Source: Bdellovibrio sp. GT3 | GTDB taxonomy: Bacteria > Bdellovibrionota > Bdellovibrionia > Bdellovibrionales > Bdellovibrionaceae | Length of the DNA stretch: 64,000 bases | Assembly (NCBI RefSeq): GCF_037996765.1 | Contig: NZ_JBBNAD010000004.1 | Location: 806,001 to 870,000 of the forward strand | Reading direction: 5' to 3' | In this document: piece after piece, positions 4,468 through 21,868 of the stretch | How the letters are laid out: each line of letters starts with the position of its first letter | Position numbering within the stretch: the first letter of the stretch is position 1 | Translations under genes and position numbers: made by a program | Notes under the pieces: generated by a model | Database searches by the model: none | What the model saw: only the letters and a program-made list of their open reading frames with translations | Told to the model about the DNA's origin: nothing

Positions 4468-6084
4468 ATGTCATTTAAGTATTTCCCACTCTACGAAAAG
4501 CAAAAAGATACAACTCAATATCGCAAGATTTCCTCAGATCACGTGAGCACCCAAAAAATCGGTGACCGTGAGGTTCTGGTTGTCGCACCAGAAGCATTGG
4601 AACTGATTGCGCAGGAGGCCTTGAGCGACGTGTCGCATTTGCTGCGCTCCGCCCATCTGCAAAAGCTGGAAAATATTCTTCAGGATCCGGAAGCCTCTGC
4701 CAACGACCGCTTCGTGGCAGTGGATCTTTTGAAAAATGCGATTATCGCAGCACAAATGGAGTTTCCATCCTGTCAGGACACGGGGACAGCCATTGTTGTG
4801 GGTAAAAAAGGTGAGGGTGTTTTCACTGGATTTGATGACAAAGAGTATTTGTCCAAAGGTGTTTACAATACGTACCAAAAACGCAATCTGCGCTATTCGC
4901 AAATGGCTCCAATCACTTTCTTTGATGAGAAAAACACCGGCACCAATCTGCCTGCGCAAATTGATATCTACTCTGAAAAAGGTGATGAATATCATTTCTT
5001 ATTTTTGGCAAAGGGCGGTGGCTCAGCCAATAAGTCATACTTGCATCAAAAAACCAAAGCGGTTTTGAATCCGGAAGGATTTGAAAAGTTCGTGAAGGAA
5101 GTTTTGGTGTCATTGGGGACGGCGGCGTGCCCTCCGTACCATTTGGCTTTCTGCGTGGGTGGTACTTCCGCTGAGGAAACTTTGAAAATCGTCAAGTACG
5201 CTTCTGCTGGCTATTTGGATGGATTGCCAACATCAGGTTCAGAAGGTGGACGTGCCTTCCGCGATATCGAAATGGAGAAGCAGGTTGAAAAATGGGCCCG
5301 CGAATCCGGCATCGGTGCGCAGTTTGGTGGAAAATATTTTGTGCATGATGTGCGTGTGATTCGCTTGCCTCGCCATGGTGCCAGCTGCCCGATCGGGGTG
5401 GGGGTGAGTTGTTCGGCGGATCGCAATATTCGCGGCAAAATCACCAAGGAAGGTATCTTCCTTGAGCAATTGGAACTTCATCCAGAGCAATACCTGCCAA
5501 ATCATCTGCAAGACACAGCAGCGGAAGCGATCAGCATTGATTTGAATCAGCCGATTGAGGAAACATTGAAAATTCTTTCTTCATTGAAAGTGGCGACTCG
5601 TGTGATGCTGAATGGTCCGATGATCGTGGCGCGCGATATTGCGCATTCCAAGCTTAAAGAAAAAGTGGATCGCGGTGAAGGTGTGCCGGATTACTTTAAG
5701 CAGTACGCGGTTTATTACGCTGGTCCTGCGAAGACTCCAAAGGGTTATGCTTCCGGTTCATTTGGTCCAACAACGTCCGAACGCATGGATCCTTACGTGG
5801 ATACATTCCAAAGTCTGCGTGGTTCAATGATCATGCTGGGTAAGGGCAATCGCTCGCAGCAGGTCACAGATGCTTGTAAAAAGCACGGTGGCTTCTATCT
5901 GGGATCTATTGGTGGGCCTGCAGCACGCTTGGGCAAGGAGTGCATCACGAAAGTGGAAGTGCTGGATTTCCCAGAGTTGGGGATGGAGTCTGTCTGGAAG
6001 ATCGAAGTCAAAGATTTCCCGGCCTTCATTATCGTCGATGACAAGGGGAATGACTTCTTTAAATCCTTCCTAAGAAAAGTCTAA
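4468..6084 (+). CDS. fumA: Class I fumarate hydratase (Fe-S dependent)
   Basis: 538 residues from the chosen ATG, close to E. coli FumA/FumB (548). It would convert fumarate to L-malate in the TCA cycle using an oxygen-sensitive [4Fe-4S] cluster. Cysteines in the family contexts are visible: [21 protein letters not shown] and [16 protein letters not shown]. The C-terminal beta domain has [11 protein letters not shown] and the [13 protein letters not shown] block. The open frame continues upstream to 4255, but [20 protein letters not shown] is the normal family N-terminus, and a promoter ends 7 nt before this ATG, so translation probably begins on a leaderless mRNA. A bidirectional terminator follows. 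Confidence 0.95.
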
Positions 6085-6120
6085 AGGTCGAAGGTATAGA
6101 CACACATTTTCCATAAAAAT

Positions 6121-6155
6121 AAAAAAAGGCAGGATTTGATGTCCTGCCTTTTTTA
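6121..6155. terminator. Bidirectional terminator between fumarase and AI-2E permease genes
   Basis: A-rich run, stem AAGGCAGGA / TCCTGCCTT with a TTTGATG loop, then a T run. It serves the convergent genes ending at 6084 and 6156. Confidence 0.9.
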
Positions 6156-13923: not shown

Positions 13924-14627
13924 AACTAAAAGTGTTGCTGTCAGTACTTCTTACGCTGGTTTCTCTTTCGAGCTTCGCGCAAGATCAGAAGGACTATTTA
14001 CTTAAAGGCACGGCCGTTGAGGAGTACATCGTTCAACCGACTGCCATTGATGAGATTTGGAAAGAAGGAACTCATATTGCGGCGGGCTTGGGAATTACCG
14101 GTGGTGCCTACATTGTTGAAGGTGTTTCTCGGGATTTTGGCGGGGGCTTGGCTGGTAAAACCGATGTCGGCTATTACCTCAATGACAAATGGGCACTGGA
14201 AGCGAGTTCTTATATTAAGTTTGCCCGGGTGAATGACTATCGTGTCTGGGGAACAATTTTGTCGGTGGGATTTCGCTATCGTTTGCCGGAAGGTTGGTTT
14301 GATGAGCAGGTTCCGTACTTCAGGGCCTTCACTGGTGCAAATATCAACGTCGTCTATCTGGATGGCCGCAAGATTCCCGAGTTTGATGAAGTCTATAACC
14401 GCATTCAATTCGAGGGCCCGATGGTGGGTATTGCCTTGGGCGGGATGAGACTATCCAAAACCAAGAAAGTTTTATTCTGGGAAGTGGCTGCAACAGGGGA
14501 GTGGATGGTGCGGGAAAGTGGCATCCAAATGGATAAAGATGTGCCTGTTGTTGTGGCAAGGGCCTCGTTGGATGGGCGCTCCCAGCTTTATTCCGTCTAT
14601 GTGACCTTGGGTGGCTTCATATTTTAA
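13920..14627 (+). CDS. Secreted outer-membrane beta-barrel-like protein
   Basis: 235 residues. A signal peptide (MKLKVLLSVLLTLVSLSSFA, cleavage after about residue 20) is followed by alternating hydrophobic strands, for example DVGYYLNDKWALEASSYIKF, GTILSVGFRYRLPE and VLFWEVAATGEWMV, and it ends in Phe (TLGGFIF), the terminal aromatic recognised by the Bam complex. It looks like a small outer-membrane barrel of eight or so strands. I do not recognise a specific family. The ATG overlaps the stop of the DUF3943 gene (ATGA), so it is co-translated with the envelope operon. Confidence 0.7.
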   Translation: MKLKVLLSVLLTLVSLSSFAQDQKDYLLKGTAVEEYIVQPTAIDEIWKEGTHIAAGLGITGGAYIVEGVSRDFGGGLAGKTDVGYYLNDKWALEASSYIKFARVNDYRVWGTILSVGFRYRLPEGWFDEQVPYFRAFTGANINVVYLDGRKIPEFDEVYNRIQFEGPMVGIALGGMRLSKTKKVLFWEVAATGEWMVRESGIQMDKDVPVVVARASLDGRSQLYSVYVTLGGFIF

Positions 14628-14647
14628 TCGTAACGCCGCGCCCAAAG

Positions 14648-14675
14648 TTGACCTTTGGGTAAAGACGGGTATCAT
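14648..14675 (+). promoter_or_regulatory. Promoter of tRNA-Leu
   Basis: TTGACC (14648-14653), 16-nt spacer, TATCAT (14670-14675). Transcription would start around 14682, nine nt before the mature tRNA. The -35 box lies in the loop and arm of a CCCAAAG/CTTTGGG hairpin (14641-14659). Confidence 0.6.
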
Positions 14676-14690
14676 CTGTGCTTCACGATT

Positions 14691-14782
14691 GCCTCGGTGG
14701 CGAAATTGGTAGACGCACAGGACTTAAAATCCTGGGATTCCTTTACCGGGTCGTGCCGGTTCGATTCCGGCCCGAGGCACCA
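14691..14782 (+). tRNA. tRNA-Leu (anticodon UAA), CCA encoded
   Basis: A class II tRNA with a long variable arm. The acceptor arms GCCTCGG (14691-14697) and CCGAGGC (14772-14778) pair perfectly, followed by discriminator A and genomic CCA. The D-loop has the AATTGGTAGACGC sequence, the anticodon loop is CTTAAAA giving UAA, and the T-arm is CCGGTTCGATTCCGG. It reads UUA (and UUG by wobble). The 3' end is part of a 23-nt inverted repeat (see 14777-14926). Confidence 0.97.
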
Positions 14783-14926
14783 TTCTCTCTCCAAATTTCT
14801 TCGGACAGTCCTCGTTCTTTTTTTCATACGGTTAGTTTTGCTGATTTATTGGTTCAATGATTTTTTTGTGGCTTCGTTGTGGCTACAGAGTACTGCGGAA
14901 CTTGAAATTTGGAGAGAGAATGGTGC
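14777..14926. repeat. Perfect 23-nt inverted repeat over the tRNA-Leu 3' end
   Basis: Arm 1 is 14777-14799, covering the last two acceptor bases, the discriminator, CCA and 17 nt of trailer. Arm 2 is 14904-14926 and is its exact reverse complement. Similarity extends further with one indel (the CGAG/CGA acceptor bases). The 104-nt loop holds a T-rich stretch and no gene. Confidence 0.85.
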
Positions 14927-14951
14927 TCGTGGTTTAACCGACCCACTCGCC

Positions 14952-14985
14952 AAAAAAAAGAAGGCACTGATTTTTAGTCAGTGCC
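14952..14985 (-). terminator. Terminator of the tailspike-like gene
   Basis: GGCACTGA / TCAGTGCC stem (14963-14985), followed on the minus strand by a run of T (plus-strand A run 14952-14959). A similar GCACTG hairpin ends the MerR gene at 17104-17124. Confidence 0.85.
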
Positions 14986-14994
14986 CTGATGGAT

Positions 14995-16818
14995 TTATTT
15001 CAGAGCAAAGTATGGCATTGCGAATTGTTCACCATTAATCACCACAGATATATAACCCTTTACTTGTTTTGTGTCGACCGCAGAAGGGTTTATAAGACGC
15101 GTGGCTAGTAATAAATCGCCCTCTTCATTGCCACCTATTCCGGCTTTTCCATTGTGCACACTAAAGCGGGCAGGAGCTACTTCAGTGCTACTCGCGGGAT
15201 CCCGCTGTACCATGGCGGCATCGAAGCGTAAGCACATCCCAGCCAGAAAGCGATCCTTCCCGTTACTTTTCAATAACACGATAACCGATGGAGTCCAGTT
15301 GGCAATTTTAACGAATACTCTGGTGTCTGTGGCGGATCGTGGCTCAATTCGCACTTCCTGCACGGGAGAACTTCCCTCTGCCGACCAACTGGCTTCCGCG
15401 TTGTCCGTTTTGCGTTGCATATGAATTATGGCGCGACCACCAGTGGTTTTTCCACCAATCACATTCTTAAATGGCTGATTGCCACTGCCGGCGTTATATT
15501 GTGTTTGTCCAAATAATTCAATTTCCCAACTATCGCCCATGGTAGGCGTAAAGAAATTGCCTAACTCAAACCATGCCGCCGTACCGGTATTGTTGCTCAG
15601 TCTGAATTTCGAATTAATGTGACCGTATTTCAAACTGCCGTCGAAGGCAGCACCAAAGGACTCAACTCTCGATGAACCCATCTCCCATGCGCTCAGCCAG
15701 CGGCCTTCACTCGGCATGGAATTGTCTATCGTGCTTCCAGATTGCAAATTAATCTGACGCGAATTCAAGCGCGAGTTGCGAGCGTTCAGCGGATTCGTGC
15801 AGCCTTCAAGGCTTAAGGCATCAATAATCCATTGTCCGTTGGAGATATCTCCTGGATCTTTACAGTGCTCAATCCACCCGTTATAAATTAACGCCTGACT
15901 ACAACGTGGTATGTTTAAAACCTTTCCATTTGTGCATCTTTGAACGTTGAAGTTGGAAAGCTCAACCGCAGTGCTGTGGTCCCAAGCTCCGGCTTCTCGG
16001 TCTGACCATTTAACTCTAACAATATCATTTATACAGGCATTGGCGTAGAATTGGTCAATTTTGCAATCTAGCGTATCCATCAAAGATAAAGAAGCCCCTC
16101 CCACATTCTGGAAGCGCAACTGGGACCCACGGAAAAACTGTCCCCCTTCACAAATATTATCGAAGAACCCTTGGTAATTTTGAAATTTATCAATCTGTCC
16201 CTTAAAGACCAGATTTGAAATCTCGGCTCTGCGCGCATTTACCTTAAACACTTGAGAAGTCTTGCCATCGGAAATTATCGTTGTAGACGGAAAATAACCA
16301 AAATTGACAGTCCCGCCCGCTAAACGAAAAAGGGGCAGCTCTGCCGTTCCCATATCCACACGAGATACAAAGAACGTACCCGCAGGAAACTGAACGCCAA
16401 TTCCTGGATGGTTGGCTTTTGACCAAGCATACATCGCTTTGATCGCCGCGGCTGTATCAGATGTACCGTCAGCCTTTGCACCAAAATCAAATACAGTCAG
16501 ATTGTTGGGATCTTTGATCACGCGACGCCAATAAAAACCACTGCCAGCAAAGACAGTCCCGCCATCATCTACTCCAGTTGACAAGTAACCAATAAAGTCG
16601 CCACCACCAACGTTAAGCCCCGAATGGTAGCTTCTTACTGTCATCTTGGCGCCATTAACTGAAGGGCGTGTAGAACGCAGCTCAATTACAGACCCGATGT
16701 CTCCCTGAGCATAACTTGGTGGCAAAGCAGCGGCTTCGGCGCGGGTGGAAATAGCAGCGACCGAGAGAGCAGTGACAAAAGAGGAGGCCGCGGATTGCAA
16801 AACTTGTCTTCTTTTCAT
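14995..16818 (-). CDS. Tat-exported tailspike-like beta-helix protein
   Basis: 607 residues. It begins with a twin-arginine signal (MKRRQVLQSAASSFVTALSV, then AEAAALPP). The mature N-terminus has the phage tailspike adaptor pattern: GDIGSVIELRSTRPSVNG, GLNVGGGDFIGY, DDGGTVFAGSGFYWRRV. It then enters a pectate-lyase-like right-handed beta-helix (TVFDFGAKADGTSDTAAAIK onward, about residues 110-420), with a C-terminal beta-rich domain. Such folds in tailspikes bind and cut surface polysaccharides. The ATG at 16818 has AAGGAAG upstream. The gene stands alone beside a tRNA, with no capsid or tail genes, suggesting a captured or repurposed depolymerase or adhesin (inference). Substrate and catalysis are unproven. 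Confidence 0.7.
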   Translation of the reverse strand: MKRRQVLQSAASSFVTALSVAAISTRAEAAALPPSYAQGDIGSVIELRSTRPSVNGAKMTVRSYHSGLNVGGGDFIGYLSTGVDDGGTVFAGSGFYWRRVIKDPNNLTVFDFGAKADGTSDTAAAIKAMYAWSKANHPGIGVQFPAGTFFVSRVDMGTAELPLFRLAGGTVNFGYFPSTTIISDGKTSQVFKVNARRAEISNLVFKGQIDKFQNYQGFFDNICEGGQFFRGSQLRFQNVGGASLSLMDTLDCKIDQFYANACINDIVRVKWSDREAGAWDHSTAVELSNFNVQRCTNGKVLNIPRCSQALIYNGWIEHCKDPGDISNGQWIIDALSLEGCTNPLNARNSRLNSRQINLQSGSTIDNSMPSEGRWLSAWEMGSSRVESFGAAFDGSLKYGHINSKFRLSNNTGTAAWFELGNFFTPTMGDSWEIELFGQTQYNAGSGNQPFKNVIGGKTTGGRAIIHMQRKTDNAEASWSAEGSSPVQEVRIEPRSATDTRVFVKIANWTPSVIVLLKSNGKDRFLAGMCLRFDAAMVQRDPASSTEVAPARFSVHNGKAGIGGNEEGDLLLATRLINPSAVDTKQVKGYISVVINGEQFAMPYFALK

Positions 16819-16982
16819 TGATCTTCCTTTTGTTAGCATCATGTTAATATGTTTCGGTCGTCCCACCTAACAATCAAGAGTTCGTGAGACACTCGAGTTC
16901 GATTACACAAACAAAACTGATCCATCAGTTTATGACTCCGCGATTTCAGATTGGATAAATAGAGAGAATTTGACCTCACGGT

Positions 16983-17056: not shown

Positions 17057-17095
17057 GTGAGGTCATGCCTGGTGCGTCTGTCTCGAATCAGAAAT

Positions 17096-17129
17096 AAAAA
17101 AAAGCACTGATTTTATGCCAGTGCTTTTT
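17096..17129. terminator. Bidirectional-type terminator after the MerR gene
   Basis: A run (17096-17103), GCACTG/CAGTGC stem (17104-17109, 17119-17124), T run. It lies 37 nt beyond the stop of the MerR gene on the minus strand. Confidence 0.8.
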
Positions 17130-18082: not shown

Positions 18083-21000
18083 TTAAGGAACAAATCGAGG
18101 TAATAGATTGTTGGTCAAACCCAGTTGGTAGTTTTTATTGAAGCCCCAACATTTCAATTGGTTCGAGGAGGTCGTTGCGCAAGTGTGATAGGCGCCTGCG
18201 CTGACTGTAGAGTATGTCGTGCCGTTGTCGATGATGGTTGGGACCTTTTTGCCCACAAGGGTGCCGTCGCCCAATTGACCGAATTCGTTGTTACCCCAGC
18301 ATTTTAAAACACCAGCAGTGGTGATGCCGCAACTGTGGGAACTGCCCACTGTGACTTCCTTGTAGGAGGTGCCTGAGTCGATCAGGGTCGGTGTGCTGCG
18401 ATTTGTGGTGGTGTTGTCACCAAGCTTGCCGGCTGTGTTGGTGCCCCAGCACTTCATGGCTCCTGCCGAGGTGATGGCGCAGCTGTGAGACTCGTCTGTC
18501 GCGATATTTGAATAGCTTACGCCGGAATCAATCAGTGTCGGAGTTGTACGGGTCGTGGTGGTGCCGTCGCCAAGTAAGCTACCGACATTGTAACCCCAGC
18601 ATTTCAGGGCACCGGATGTGGTGATGCCGCAGGTGTGTTTCATGCCGGCGGCAATCGCCGAGTAGGTGGAACCGACATCAATAAACATCGGTGTTAAGGA
18701 TTCTGTCGTTGTGCCATTGCCCAGTTGGTTGGTGTTGTTATAGCCCCAGCACTTAAGGTCGCCGGAAGTTGTGATGGCGCAAGTGTGCAAATCACCATTT
18801 GCGACGGCAGAGTAGGAAGTGTTCGAGTCCACAAGAACCGGATACGTTCTTTTGGTTTTTGTGCCGTCGCCAATCTCCCCATAGACATTGGATCCCCAAC
18901 ATTTTAGAAGTCCGGTCTCAGTGATGCCGCAAGTGTGGTGGTTTCCTGCGCTATTGCCGTTAACGGCGATAGCTTTATAAGGGGTGCCTGGATCCACGAC
19001 TGTGGGTATTGGTTTGATGGCCGTGGTTCTGTCACCAATCTGACCGCCATAGTTTTCACCCCAGCATTTGATTCCGCGAGCCGTAATTCCACATGTGTTG
19101 ACCTGGCCTGCAGAGGCCTTGCTGTGGGCTGTCGCTGAATCAACAGGTTTAGGGGTTGTGACGATGGAGCCGTAGCCCATACCAAGCTGGCCATACTGAT
19201 TGTCACCCCAGCATTTTAGATACCCGGCGCTCAGTATTCCGCAAGTATGATAGCCGCCCACCGAAACAGAGGTGTAGGCGGTGTTGTCAGTAATGCCCGG
19301 AGTTTTGCGGTCGATGGTTGTGCCATCGCCGAGCTGACCATTCTGGTTGCTTCCCCAACATTTCAAATATCCCATCGTCGTGATTCCGCAGGTCTGGTCG
19401 TAGCCTGTGTTCACTGTGATATAAGAGGTGCCACTGTCGATCATTGTCGGAGTCATCAGAGTGGTTGTGGTGTTGTTGCCCAGCTGGCCCGCGCCGTTGT
19501 AACCCCAACATTTAAGCGAGCCTGTCGTCGTCACTCCGCAAGTGTAGTCCGAAAATGCGGAAACCATTGAATAGGTGGTTGATCCATCAACTAGATTAGG
19601 TGATGAAATCGAACTGGTCCCACCGGTACCCAGTTGACCTGAATCATTTTTACCCCAGCATTTTAGCTGGCCTGAATTCTGGATGGCGCATGTATGAGAT
19701 CCACCCGCTGTGACAGAGGAGTAGATGAAACCGATGTCAATAAGAGCCGGTAAAGAAAGGCTGGTCATAGAACCGTTTCCAAGTTGTCCACTGTCGTTAA
19801 GACCCCAGCACTTCAGTGATCCGGAAGTGGTGATGGCGCAGGTATGTTCATAACCGGCTGCAACTGAACTGAAGGTTACGCCGCTATCAATAACGACTGG
19901 CGCATTTGTGGCAACATTCGTTCCATTACCCAGTTGGCCACTGGTGTTGTCCCCCCAACATTTCAAAATACCACTGGAGGTGATGGCGCAAGTATGGTCA
20001 ATACTCGCAACCACCATCTGATACGAAATTCCATTATCGACGATGGCAGGGGAAGACTGATTGATCGTGCTTCCGATTCCCAATTGTCCGCTATAATTGG
20101 CTCCCCAGCATTTTAAAATTCCCGACTGGGTGATACCACAGGTGTGGGCTTCGCCGCTGGACACTTTCACGAATTTATCAGAAGTACCATCGTCATCAAA
20201 AACGGTTTGGTTATAGGAATTAAAGACGCTGGCAACAACGTTCGCTGTGTTGCTATAAGGAGTCAGGTCCAATTGGAACACCAAAGATGAAGAAGCGAAT
20301 GTGTCGCCGTAAAGCTGGAAATTGGTGCTGGCACTTGAAACGCCCGCTGGCAGGGTCATGCTGTTGTTGGCAAGACTGAAATGCGTGGGATTGATAGCTG
20401 TGGTGATCGCTTTGTTCACCACAAATTCAATTGTGATGTCTGACGTGGTTGCAGGGGCGACCTGCAAATTGATCGAGTGCGAAGCTGTCGAATTGCCTTC
20501 AGAAAGTGGATTAGTTGGTGCCGGCATACCGACGATGTAAATAGTCTGATCTACGATAACAGACGTTCCTGTTTGGTTGAGTGCCAGGTTGCCAACCGCA
20601 TCGGAAGCGGTTCCTGCTGCGATAGAGGGCGCAAGAGTTCCTGCACCTGTGCAGTTTTCCACAATCAGAAGGCGGGAATCAGGGCGATCCAGGCCACCGA
20701 TTTTCTTTGTGCATCCGGTATTTGCACCCTGCAAAGTGATGTCGTTATTGGTTAATGTGATGCTACTCGCGTCCAGATAGGAAATGACCCACACAAAGCT
20801 GGTTGATGACAGTCCCACCGCAGGAGCTGGTGTTGACATCACAACCACCGGTGGTGTGCTGTCTATAAGAATATTTGCAGGCGATGTCAAACTCACATTG
20901 TCGGCTAAATCTGCAGTAGTCGCACGCACTTTGACATTTGCGGAAATCAAAGGGGAGACCCAATTGTAAGTGCCTGATGGAGGTTGTGCCAATACGATTG

Positions 21001-21868
21001 AAGACCATGTTATTCCACTATCCAGTGAATATTCCAAGGCAACCATATTGGGTGCAATGTTGAGATCCGAACTGATCCAGGAAAGACTTACCACATCGCC
21101 ACCGCGAATCATCGAAGGCAGAGTCGAGGTCAATTGGATCAGAGGGGGAGTTGAGTCCAAGTTATACAACAGCCCTGTTGAGCAGGCAGAAACACTTCCG
21201 CCTTGTGAGCGGGTTGCATAAAAGTTGTAAGTGCCATCAGCGCCCAGGATCGGGACATTCAATTTAGCCGTCGTTGTGACGGCCGTTGTTGAAGTAAGAA
21301 AGATTGAACAAGCTGAATCGCTGTAAATGGAAACGATGTCTCCTGAGTTTAAACCACTTGCCAGGATTTCTGGGGTTTGAATTCTTGAGGGAATAGTCAC
21401 AGGATTGCTGAGTTCTAAGTTTGGTGTCGTGACCACTCCTGGAGTCGGTGACGGAGTTGGCGACGGTGAGGGAGTCGGAGTTGGTGAAGGCGAAGCGGCT
21501 ACCAAGTGTACGGAAACGGTCTGACAGGCGAAGTCTTTGCCGTTAATACGATACCGATAGCTGATTTTCTTTTCTCCGATTTCCGGTGACAGAACAAGAT
21601 CGTAAGAGGACTTCTTACTTTGCCATTCCAAACCATCACAGGATTCGCCTTCTCCGATAGCAATCTCTGACACCTGAGGCGGCAGCAGTGAAACAGAAAT
21701 GGAGGGTGTTGAGGTTGTGATGTACTTTTTTGAATCGACAGCGTATTCACCTTCGAAGTTGACGGAGGCACGACTTTCACTTTTTAAAAGTGAAACCATC
21801 GGATCCACATTGGTGCAGCCTCCGAGAATGAAAGTCAGAATGAAAAGTATTGGAAAAAATGAACCCAC
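18083..21868 (-). CDS. Large RCC1-repeat lipoprotein with Ig-like domains
   Basis: 1261 residues. The N-terminus is a lipoprotein signal (FILTFILGGC, Cys18 as the lipidated residue). Then come a small Cys-containing domain, a Ser-Pro-Thr linker (about 126-145), Ig-like bacterial modules (about 150-450), a Calx-beta-like stretch (LSEGNSTASHSINLQVAP), and from about residue 565 to the end fourteen RCC1-type repeats of about 50 residues, the last one partial. Each repeat carries HTCxI...LKCWGxN...GQLGxGT, with two cysteines per repeat. Fourteen repeats would make two seven-bladed propellers. Role is probably surface binding or adhesion (inference). The start is GTG 21868 with only a weak AGAGG; the signal lacks the usual basic N-terminus (see finding). 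Confidence 0.85.
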   Translation of the reverse strand: MGSFFPILFILTFILGGCTNVDPMVSLLKSESRASVNFEGEYAVDSKKYITTSTPSISVSLLPPQVSEIAIGEGESCDGLEWQSKKSSYDLVLSPEIGEKKISYRYRINGKDFACQTVSVHLVAASPSPTPTPSPSPTPSPTPGVVTTPNLELSNPVTIPSRIQTPEILASGLNSGDIVSIYSDSACSIFLTSTTAVTTTAKLNVPILGADGTYNFYATRSQGGSVSACSTGLLYNLDSTPPLIQLTSTLPSMIRGGDVVSLSWISSDLNIAPNMVALEYSLDSGITWSSIVLAQPPSGTYNWVSPLISANVKVRATTADLADNVSLTSPANILIDSTPPVVVMSTPAPAVGLSSTSFVWVISYLDASSITLTNNDITLQGANTGCTKKIGGLDRPDSRLLIVENCTGAGTLAPSIAAGTASDAVGNLALNQTGTSVIVDQTIYIVGMPAPTNPLSEGNSTASHSINLQVAPATTSDITIEFVVNKAITTAINPTHFSLANNSMTLPAGVSSASTNFQLYGDTFASSSLVFQLDLTPYSNTANVVASVFNSYNQTVFDDDGTSDKFVKVSSGEAHTCGITQSGILKCWGANYSGQLGIGSTINQSSPAIVDNGISYQMVVASIDHTCAITSSGILKCWGDNTSGQLGNGTNVATNAPVVIDSGVTFSSVAAGYEHTCAITTSGSLKCWGLNDSGQLGNGSMTSLSLPALIDIGFIYSSVTAGGSHTCAIQNSGQLKCWGKNDSGQLGTGGTSSISSPNLVDGSTTYSMVSAFSDYTCGVTTTGSLKCWGYNGAGQLGNNTTTTLMTPTMIDSGTSYITVNTGYDQTCGITTMGYLKCWGSNQNGQLGDGTTIDRKTPGITDNTAYTSVSVGGYHTCGILSAGYLKCWGDNQYGQLGMGYGSIVTTPKPVDSATAHSKASAGQVNTCGITARGIKCWGENYGGQIGDRTTAIKPIPTVVDPGTPYKAIAVNGNSAGNHHTCGITETGLLKCWGSNVYGEIGDGTKTKRTYPVLVDSNTSYSAVANGDLHTCAITTSGDLKCWGYNNTNQLGNGTTTESLTPMFIDVGSTYSAIAAGMKHTCGITTSGALKCWGYNVGSLLGDGTTTTRTTPTLIDSGVSYSNIATDESHSCAITSAGAMKCWGTNTAGKLGDNTTTNRSTPTLIDSGTSYKEVTVGSSHSCGITTAGVLKCWGNNEFGQLGDGTLVGKKVPTIIDNGTTYSTVSAGAYHTCATTSSNQLKCWGFNKNYQLGLTNNLLPRFVP

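Follow-up and report, generated by a model that had tools for sequence, protein, structure and literature searches.

The closest described system is WceF of Pantoea stewartii (PDB 6TGF), an exopolysaccharide (EPS) hydrolase that carries a Tat signal and assembles as a trimer; it is built of head, neck, right-handed beta-helix, sandwich, and stem (PMC7949094, Irmscher et al. 2021). It hydrolyses stewartan slowly and clusters with it, wceF mutants have longer stewartan, and one role proposed for WceF is to trim the slime of the Pantoea cell itself (PMC7949094). The final location of WceF was left unanalysed in that study. Tailspikes that are encoded by cells and bear a Tat signal thus have a precedent. 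The EPS depolymerases of Erwinia and Pantoea phages (PHROG 4250) are homologous to the protein described below in the neck, beta-helix, and C-terminal region at about 35-42% identity, but they have other N-termini, lack the twin-arginine signal, and are encoded by phages.

Two reports concern the genus Bdellovibrio itself. The MAT fibres of Bdellovibrio bacteriovorus are phage-fibre-like proteins tied to prey glycans, as the protein described here may be, but they were reported as adhesins and not hydrolases, and their tips are of S74, TNF-like, and lectin-like types (PMC10769870); this comparison is one of descriptions, not of homology. An AmsF gene, B9G69_00395, was listed among the unique genes of Bdellovibrio sp. 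SKB1291214, called Erwinia-phage-associated, assigned to amylovoran biosynthesis, and taken as a sign of transfer (PMC5941755). Judged by its name alone, it probably belongs to the family described here. In the literature searched, which included few subscription-only articles and no bioRxiv preprint, we found no description of a headless exported hydrolase of the WceF type in Bdellovibrio.

The wceF-like gene lies at positions 14995..16818 of the window, by which we mean the whole stretch of 64,000 nucleotides of Bdellovibrio sp. GT3 that was analysed. It is read from the minus strand, as are all its parts given below, and encodes, stop included, a protein of 607 amino acids. The open frame noticed in the sequence-only reading is real, and all motifs quoted for it are present. 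The mechanical start of this frame is a GTG at 16866; we preferred the ATG at 16818 because it aligns with the start of WceF and has directly upstream the ribosome-binding-site-like AGGAAG (16823..16828), read from the sequence. The protein begins with MKRRQVLQ, followed by a hydrophobic stretch and AEA. Residues 1-29 (16732..16818, cleavage after AEA assumed) align with the WceF signal, which Irmscher et al. called Tat (PMC7949094), so the twin-arginine signal claimed earlier is probably correct. Then come the neck domain (residues ~38-101, 16516..16707, WceF 166-229), placed by alignment and structure comparison, and the right-handed parallel beta-helix (residues ~107-388, 15655..16500), placed by model and fold comparison. 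The sole Pfam match, below the curated cut-off, is to PF12708, a pectate-lyase-like entry segment in the beta-helix. The beta-sandwich or jelly-roll domain (residues ~402-538, 15205..15615, WceF 531-667) was delimited by alignment and model, and the C-terminal stem (residues ~549-607, 14998..15174, WceF 678-736) by alignment with WceF. An intrinsic-terminator-like hairpin with a T run (14961..14987) stands right behind the gene. With tRNA-Leu downstream and a MerR-type regulator upstream, the gene appears to be a stand-alone unit. A loose pattern of the FliA-type attack-phase promoter was not found in five upstream stretches.

The best PDB match was 6TGF at 3e-245 (phmmer), where residues 28-607 aligned with WceF 156-735 and residues 1-27 separately with the signal, WceF 1-27. 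The profile PHROG 4250, 'EPS depolymerase', was matched at 7.5e-194; NCBIfam gave no match. The homology with the WceF/AmsF exopolysaccharide hydrolases covers neck, beta-helix, sandwich, and stem, and the Pantoea and Erwinia homologues of AmsF type share with the Bdellovibrio protein the order of signal, neck, beta-helix, sandwich, and stem, the same acidic residues, and about 55-65% identity. The AlphaFold model (monomer, 48 aligned rows) had a mean pLDDT of 88, with the first 32 residues below 50; from the single sequence the pLDDT was 32.6. In a Foldseek search the model found three chains of 6TGF on top (best E 1.4e-66), and the first structures other than 6TGF were phage tailspikes at about 3e-13. 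The VIA comparison with 6TGF gave Z 49.4 and an rmsd of 1.8 A over 543 residues at 60% identity, and the next entry had Z 27.7. The beta-helix, for which the sequence-only reading had called for a structure search, is therefore borne out by the model and the fold comparison. The same reading had considered Tat export unexpected for a trimeric beta-helix; this does not hold, since the homologue WceF is a trimer with a Tat signal (PMC7949094).

The earlier suggestion of a tailspike-like N-terminal adaptor stands in part. A tailspike-type neck, the neck domain of WceF, is present, but there is no virion adaptor, and the virion-binding head is absent. The P22-type head (PF09008) is present in a Pantoea WceF and missing from the wceF-like protein by both Pfam and alignment, so we file the protein as a variant and not as a typical WceF/AmsF member. 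Residues ~31-155 of WceF, which include this head (~125 residues), have no counterpart, and the signal runs nearly straight into the neck. The headless state is common to all five copies found in the genus of the window's genome; one of them, G021b, has between signal and neck a stretch of about 10 to 20 residues that is peculiar to it. All of 19 further Pantoea loci (L064-L082) have the signal and the headed length of 735-775 residues. We also considered a remnant of the head, as LPPSYAQG resembles QPAGYQLIG ahead of the WceF neck, and rejected it as too short to count. The head is dispensable in P22, and head-free constructs of WceF were soluble but quickly aggregating (PMC7949094). Since WceF without its head aggregates, the five headless versions are either a natural counter-example or have compensated.

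Four acidic residues, D248, D251, E286, and E338, are the same in every one of 48 aligned rows, and E317 is invariant in 22. All five are kept in the 15 proteins compared (five Bdellovibrio copies and ten WceFs), and the stretch that bears them (15805..16077) holds the candidate catalytic set. The dN/dS values of 0.10-0.32 across the ten pairs of Bdellovibrio copies indicate purifying selection. The kept acids together with this selection point to a putative working enzyme.

The distribution of the gene is uneven. It was detected in four of 59 genomes searched (own genome included), all in the window's genus; within this genus 4 of 24 genomes are positive, with five copies, because one genome (G021) has two. 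Across the phylum the count is 4 of 368, all from one genus. Among Pantoea genomes 59 of 61 matched at 1e-100, some below full length, and of 392 genomes sampled from the family to which Erwinia sp. ErVv1 belongs, 14 did so at 1e-10. In the gammaproteobacterial sample the one positive genome of 369 was Erwinia sp. ErVv1, the sample's own centre. A contig scan with a single query, whose reach is limited to close relatives, gave only two loci, from Erwinia and Pantoea. Matches were found in 15 plasmids (14 from Pantoea) and in 213 phage records, all below 60% identity, with 117 of them covering 80% or more. None of 78 viral open frames has RR within the first 20 residues. Several other forms of the family were seen. 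Many Pantoea carry extra members of about 580-650 amino acids without the signal (for example, L057 7926-9779 and L038-L041), some of them on large plasmids and one behind an autotransporter-domain gene. Broken wceF copies occur in Candidatus Pantoea persica and one relative (L007 and L029), and Xanthomonas phage XaC1 (L051) has two family members side by side.

The five Bdellovibrio copies occupy three unrelated chromosomal sites. The window copy adjoins tRNA-Leu inside a stretch of about 9 kb whose flanking genes are close together in G021; a second site, flanked by a gene for an aromatic amino acid lyase and one for a urocanase, is common to the copies of G011 and G022 and to copy G021b, and copy G021a has a third site. 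By Pfam, no EPS gene was recognised among 20 window genes or among ten near the G021a, G011, and G021b copies. In the one Pantoea locus checked (L059), the signal-bearing homologue lies inside an exopolysaccharide cluster, amid Wzc, EpsG-type, glycosyltransferase, acyltransferase, pyruvyltransferase, and flippase-type genes. The sequence-only reading had noted that no phage structural genes surround the gene, and this was confirmed for ten neighbouring proteins with one ambiguous case, a protein of the serine beta-lactamase family about 7.5 kb off that also matches a profile 'minor tail protein with lysin activity'. Thus two features of a prophage tailspike, the virion adaptor and phage structural neighbours, were not found, and the signal stands in place of the head. 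The sequence-only reading had named as its refutation homologues always encoded in prophages with identical N-termini including the signal; this is not what was seen, for the signal-bearing ones are Pantoea and Erwinia proteins and the 78 viral frames lack an early RR. The earlier view of a cell-exported tailspike-like protein outside a prophage, plausibly a depolymerase, is supported. Relative to WceF, the new features are the Bdellovibrio host, the site outside an exopolysaccharide cluster, and the missing P22-type head; the host is a predator and has up to two copies per genome.

Some other features of this site should be described. Integration at the neighbouring tRNA-Leu was considered and rejected, as no integrase was recognised among 20 window genes tested, and an inverted repeat on the tRNA side turned out to be a separate hairpin element. 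This long hairpin (14777-14926) follows right after tRNA-Leu(UAA), its outer arm of 23 perfect base pairs takes in the 3' end of the tRNA, and its fold has z -8.06. In two further genomes of the genus (L015 ~800-950; L171 ~5975-6125) the tRNA is followed by the same core, which was not seen in G021 (L016). The letters of its arms differ while the pairing is kept, with double changes in 7 of 48 predicted pairs (three rows), so that either it is a structured RNA or its arms are kept alike by conversion. An Rfam search of 14600-15010 at a loose threshold brought only the tRNA to the gathering score. The tRNA-Leu (window 14691-14782; L016 6538-6629, L015 721-812, and L171 5887-5978 in relatives) has in the window, with respect to the same flanking gene block, the opposite orientation to that in G021, G022, and G011. 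Two terminator-like direct repeats, 82% alike and 2,140 bases apart, flank the wceF-like gene (14952-14984 and 17092-17124); they may be the border of an inserted piece or similar terminators of two minus-strand genes. The same variable stretch also encodes a protein of 1,261 amino acids that is rich in RCC1 repeats and begins with a signal-like segment (18083-21868).

The host genome encodes TatC (3.1e-77), a full GspD-type secretin (604.7 bits, cut-off 351), and also PilQ. The presence of TatC and the GspD-type secretin makes a Tat plus type II route possible. A PBP4-like protein of the same genome had as best PDB matches Bd3459 and Bd0816, Bdellovibrio enzymes expressed at prey entry (PMC5941755), and on these matches we take the host for a Bdellovibrio-like predator.

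Our preferred reading, which we hold with moderate confidence, is that the gene encodes a headless, exported, horizontally transferred exopolysaccharide hydrolase of the WceF type, probably acting on prey or biofilm slime. The chain would fold in the cytoplasm and then be carried by Tat over the inner membrane, the trimer forming before or after export; the protein would leave by the type II system or act in a periplasm, either the predator's or that of the prey. By homology to WceF, it may cleave an anionic exopolysaccharide similar to stewartan or amylovoran. Given a predatory host and no EPS genes nearby, the slime or biofilm matrix of the prey would be the most likely target. Against this reading, head-free WceF aggregates, so a protein that has no head may lack stability or act in another way; 20 of the 24 genomes of the genus do not have the gene, which hence is not needed for predation.

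Among other functions, the protein could trim polysaccharide of the predator itself, on its surface or in its biofilm matrix, with the polysaccharide genes located elsewhere in the genome. This is a role proposed for WceF, whose signal and catalytic region are the same and whose loss lengthens stewartan (PMC7949094), but the tested genes near the copies include none for EPS, the copies lie at three unrelated sites, and most genomes of the genus do without the gene; we therefore consider this function rather unlikely. It is less probable still that the protein serves mainly to attach the predator to slimy prey, as a lectin-like adhesin or matrix cross-linker, and cleaves slowly or not at all. 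WceF does cluster with stewartan and cut it slowly (PMC7949094), but all the invariant acids, dispensable for a pure binder, are kept here, and Pfam matched no anchor domain.

How did a hydrolase of this type come to Bdellovibrio? A tree of 42 proteins joins WceF with the Bdellovibrio copies (100/99); within this group, one clade comprises ten WceFs (100/100) and another four of the Bdellovibrio copies (100/99), and G021b stands on the WceF side (93/85). The tree of 24 rows does not resolve the placement of G021b and is compatible with a single Bdellovibrio clade (not rejected, p-AU 0.58), so there may have been one transfer or two. The tree does not nest the Bdellovibrio copies inside the Erwiniaceae clade, which makes donor and direction uncertain and also counts against our reading. 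Base composition, considered as a mark of recent transfer, gave no such sign: GC is nearly the same in the gene (0.474) and in the window (0.475), and by codon distance the gene takes rank 15 among 38 window genes. GC3, at 0.45, is on the low side, and 3 of the 38 genes have lower values. Codon use is thus ordinary for the window and shows no sign of recent arrival, a further point against our reading, and any transfer would not be a recent one. Horizontal transfer from an Erwiniaceae-like donor to Bdellovibrio nevertheless seems most likely, because nearly all Pantoea sampled have the gene while its presence in Bdellovibrio is patchy, and because deletion of a head would be simpler than its insertion.

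The reverse direction, with an older headless Tat protein passing from a Bdellovibrio-like bacterium to Erwiniaceae and the P22-type head added later, agrees with an Erwiniaceae clade of 10 rows that is not interleaved with Bdellovibrio copies and with G021b joining it in the larger tree. We find it improbable in view of the same distribution, the single Bdellovibrio clade that is not rejected, and the greater difficulty that insertion of a head between signal and neck would presumably present. Direct descent from a Bdellovibrio phage tailspike gene, as a prophage remnant independent of WceF, is very improbable and was rejected on neighbours, signal, and tree, for in spite of the relatives in phage records and the phage-associated label of the Bdellovibrio AmsF gene (PMC5941755), identity is 55-65% to most Erwiniaceae WceFs against ~42% at most to phage proteins, WceF and the Bdellovibrio copies form one group with a common signal that the 78 viral frames lack, and no phage genes lie beside the wceF-like gene.

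Taking the transfer from Erwiniaceae as preferred, we can tentatively suggest a longer history, which is quite possible though doubtful: a tailspike domesticated twice, from phage depolymerase to slime trimmer of Erwiniaceae and then to a predator of such bacteria, where the head was dropped and the exported trimer would open the prey slime by the same fold that phages use. If this is true, one enzyme fold would serve predator and phage against the same barrier, and a housekeeping gene of the prey would have been turned into a weapon. It would also correct the printed reading of the Bdellovibrio AmsF as a phage-associated biosynthesis gene. The claim that WceF needs its head for stability meets a natural test in the five headless copies under purifying selection, and the protein itself is a specific candidate for the means by which some Bdellovibrio may cope with slimy or biofilm prey.
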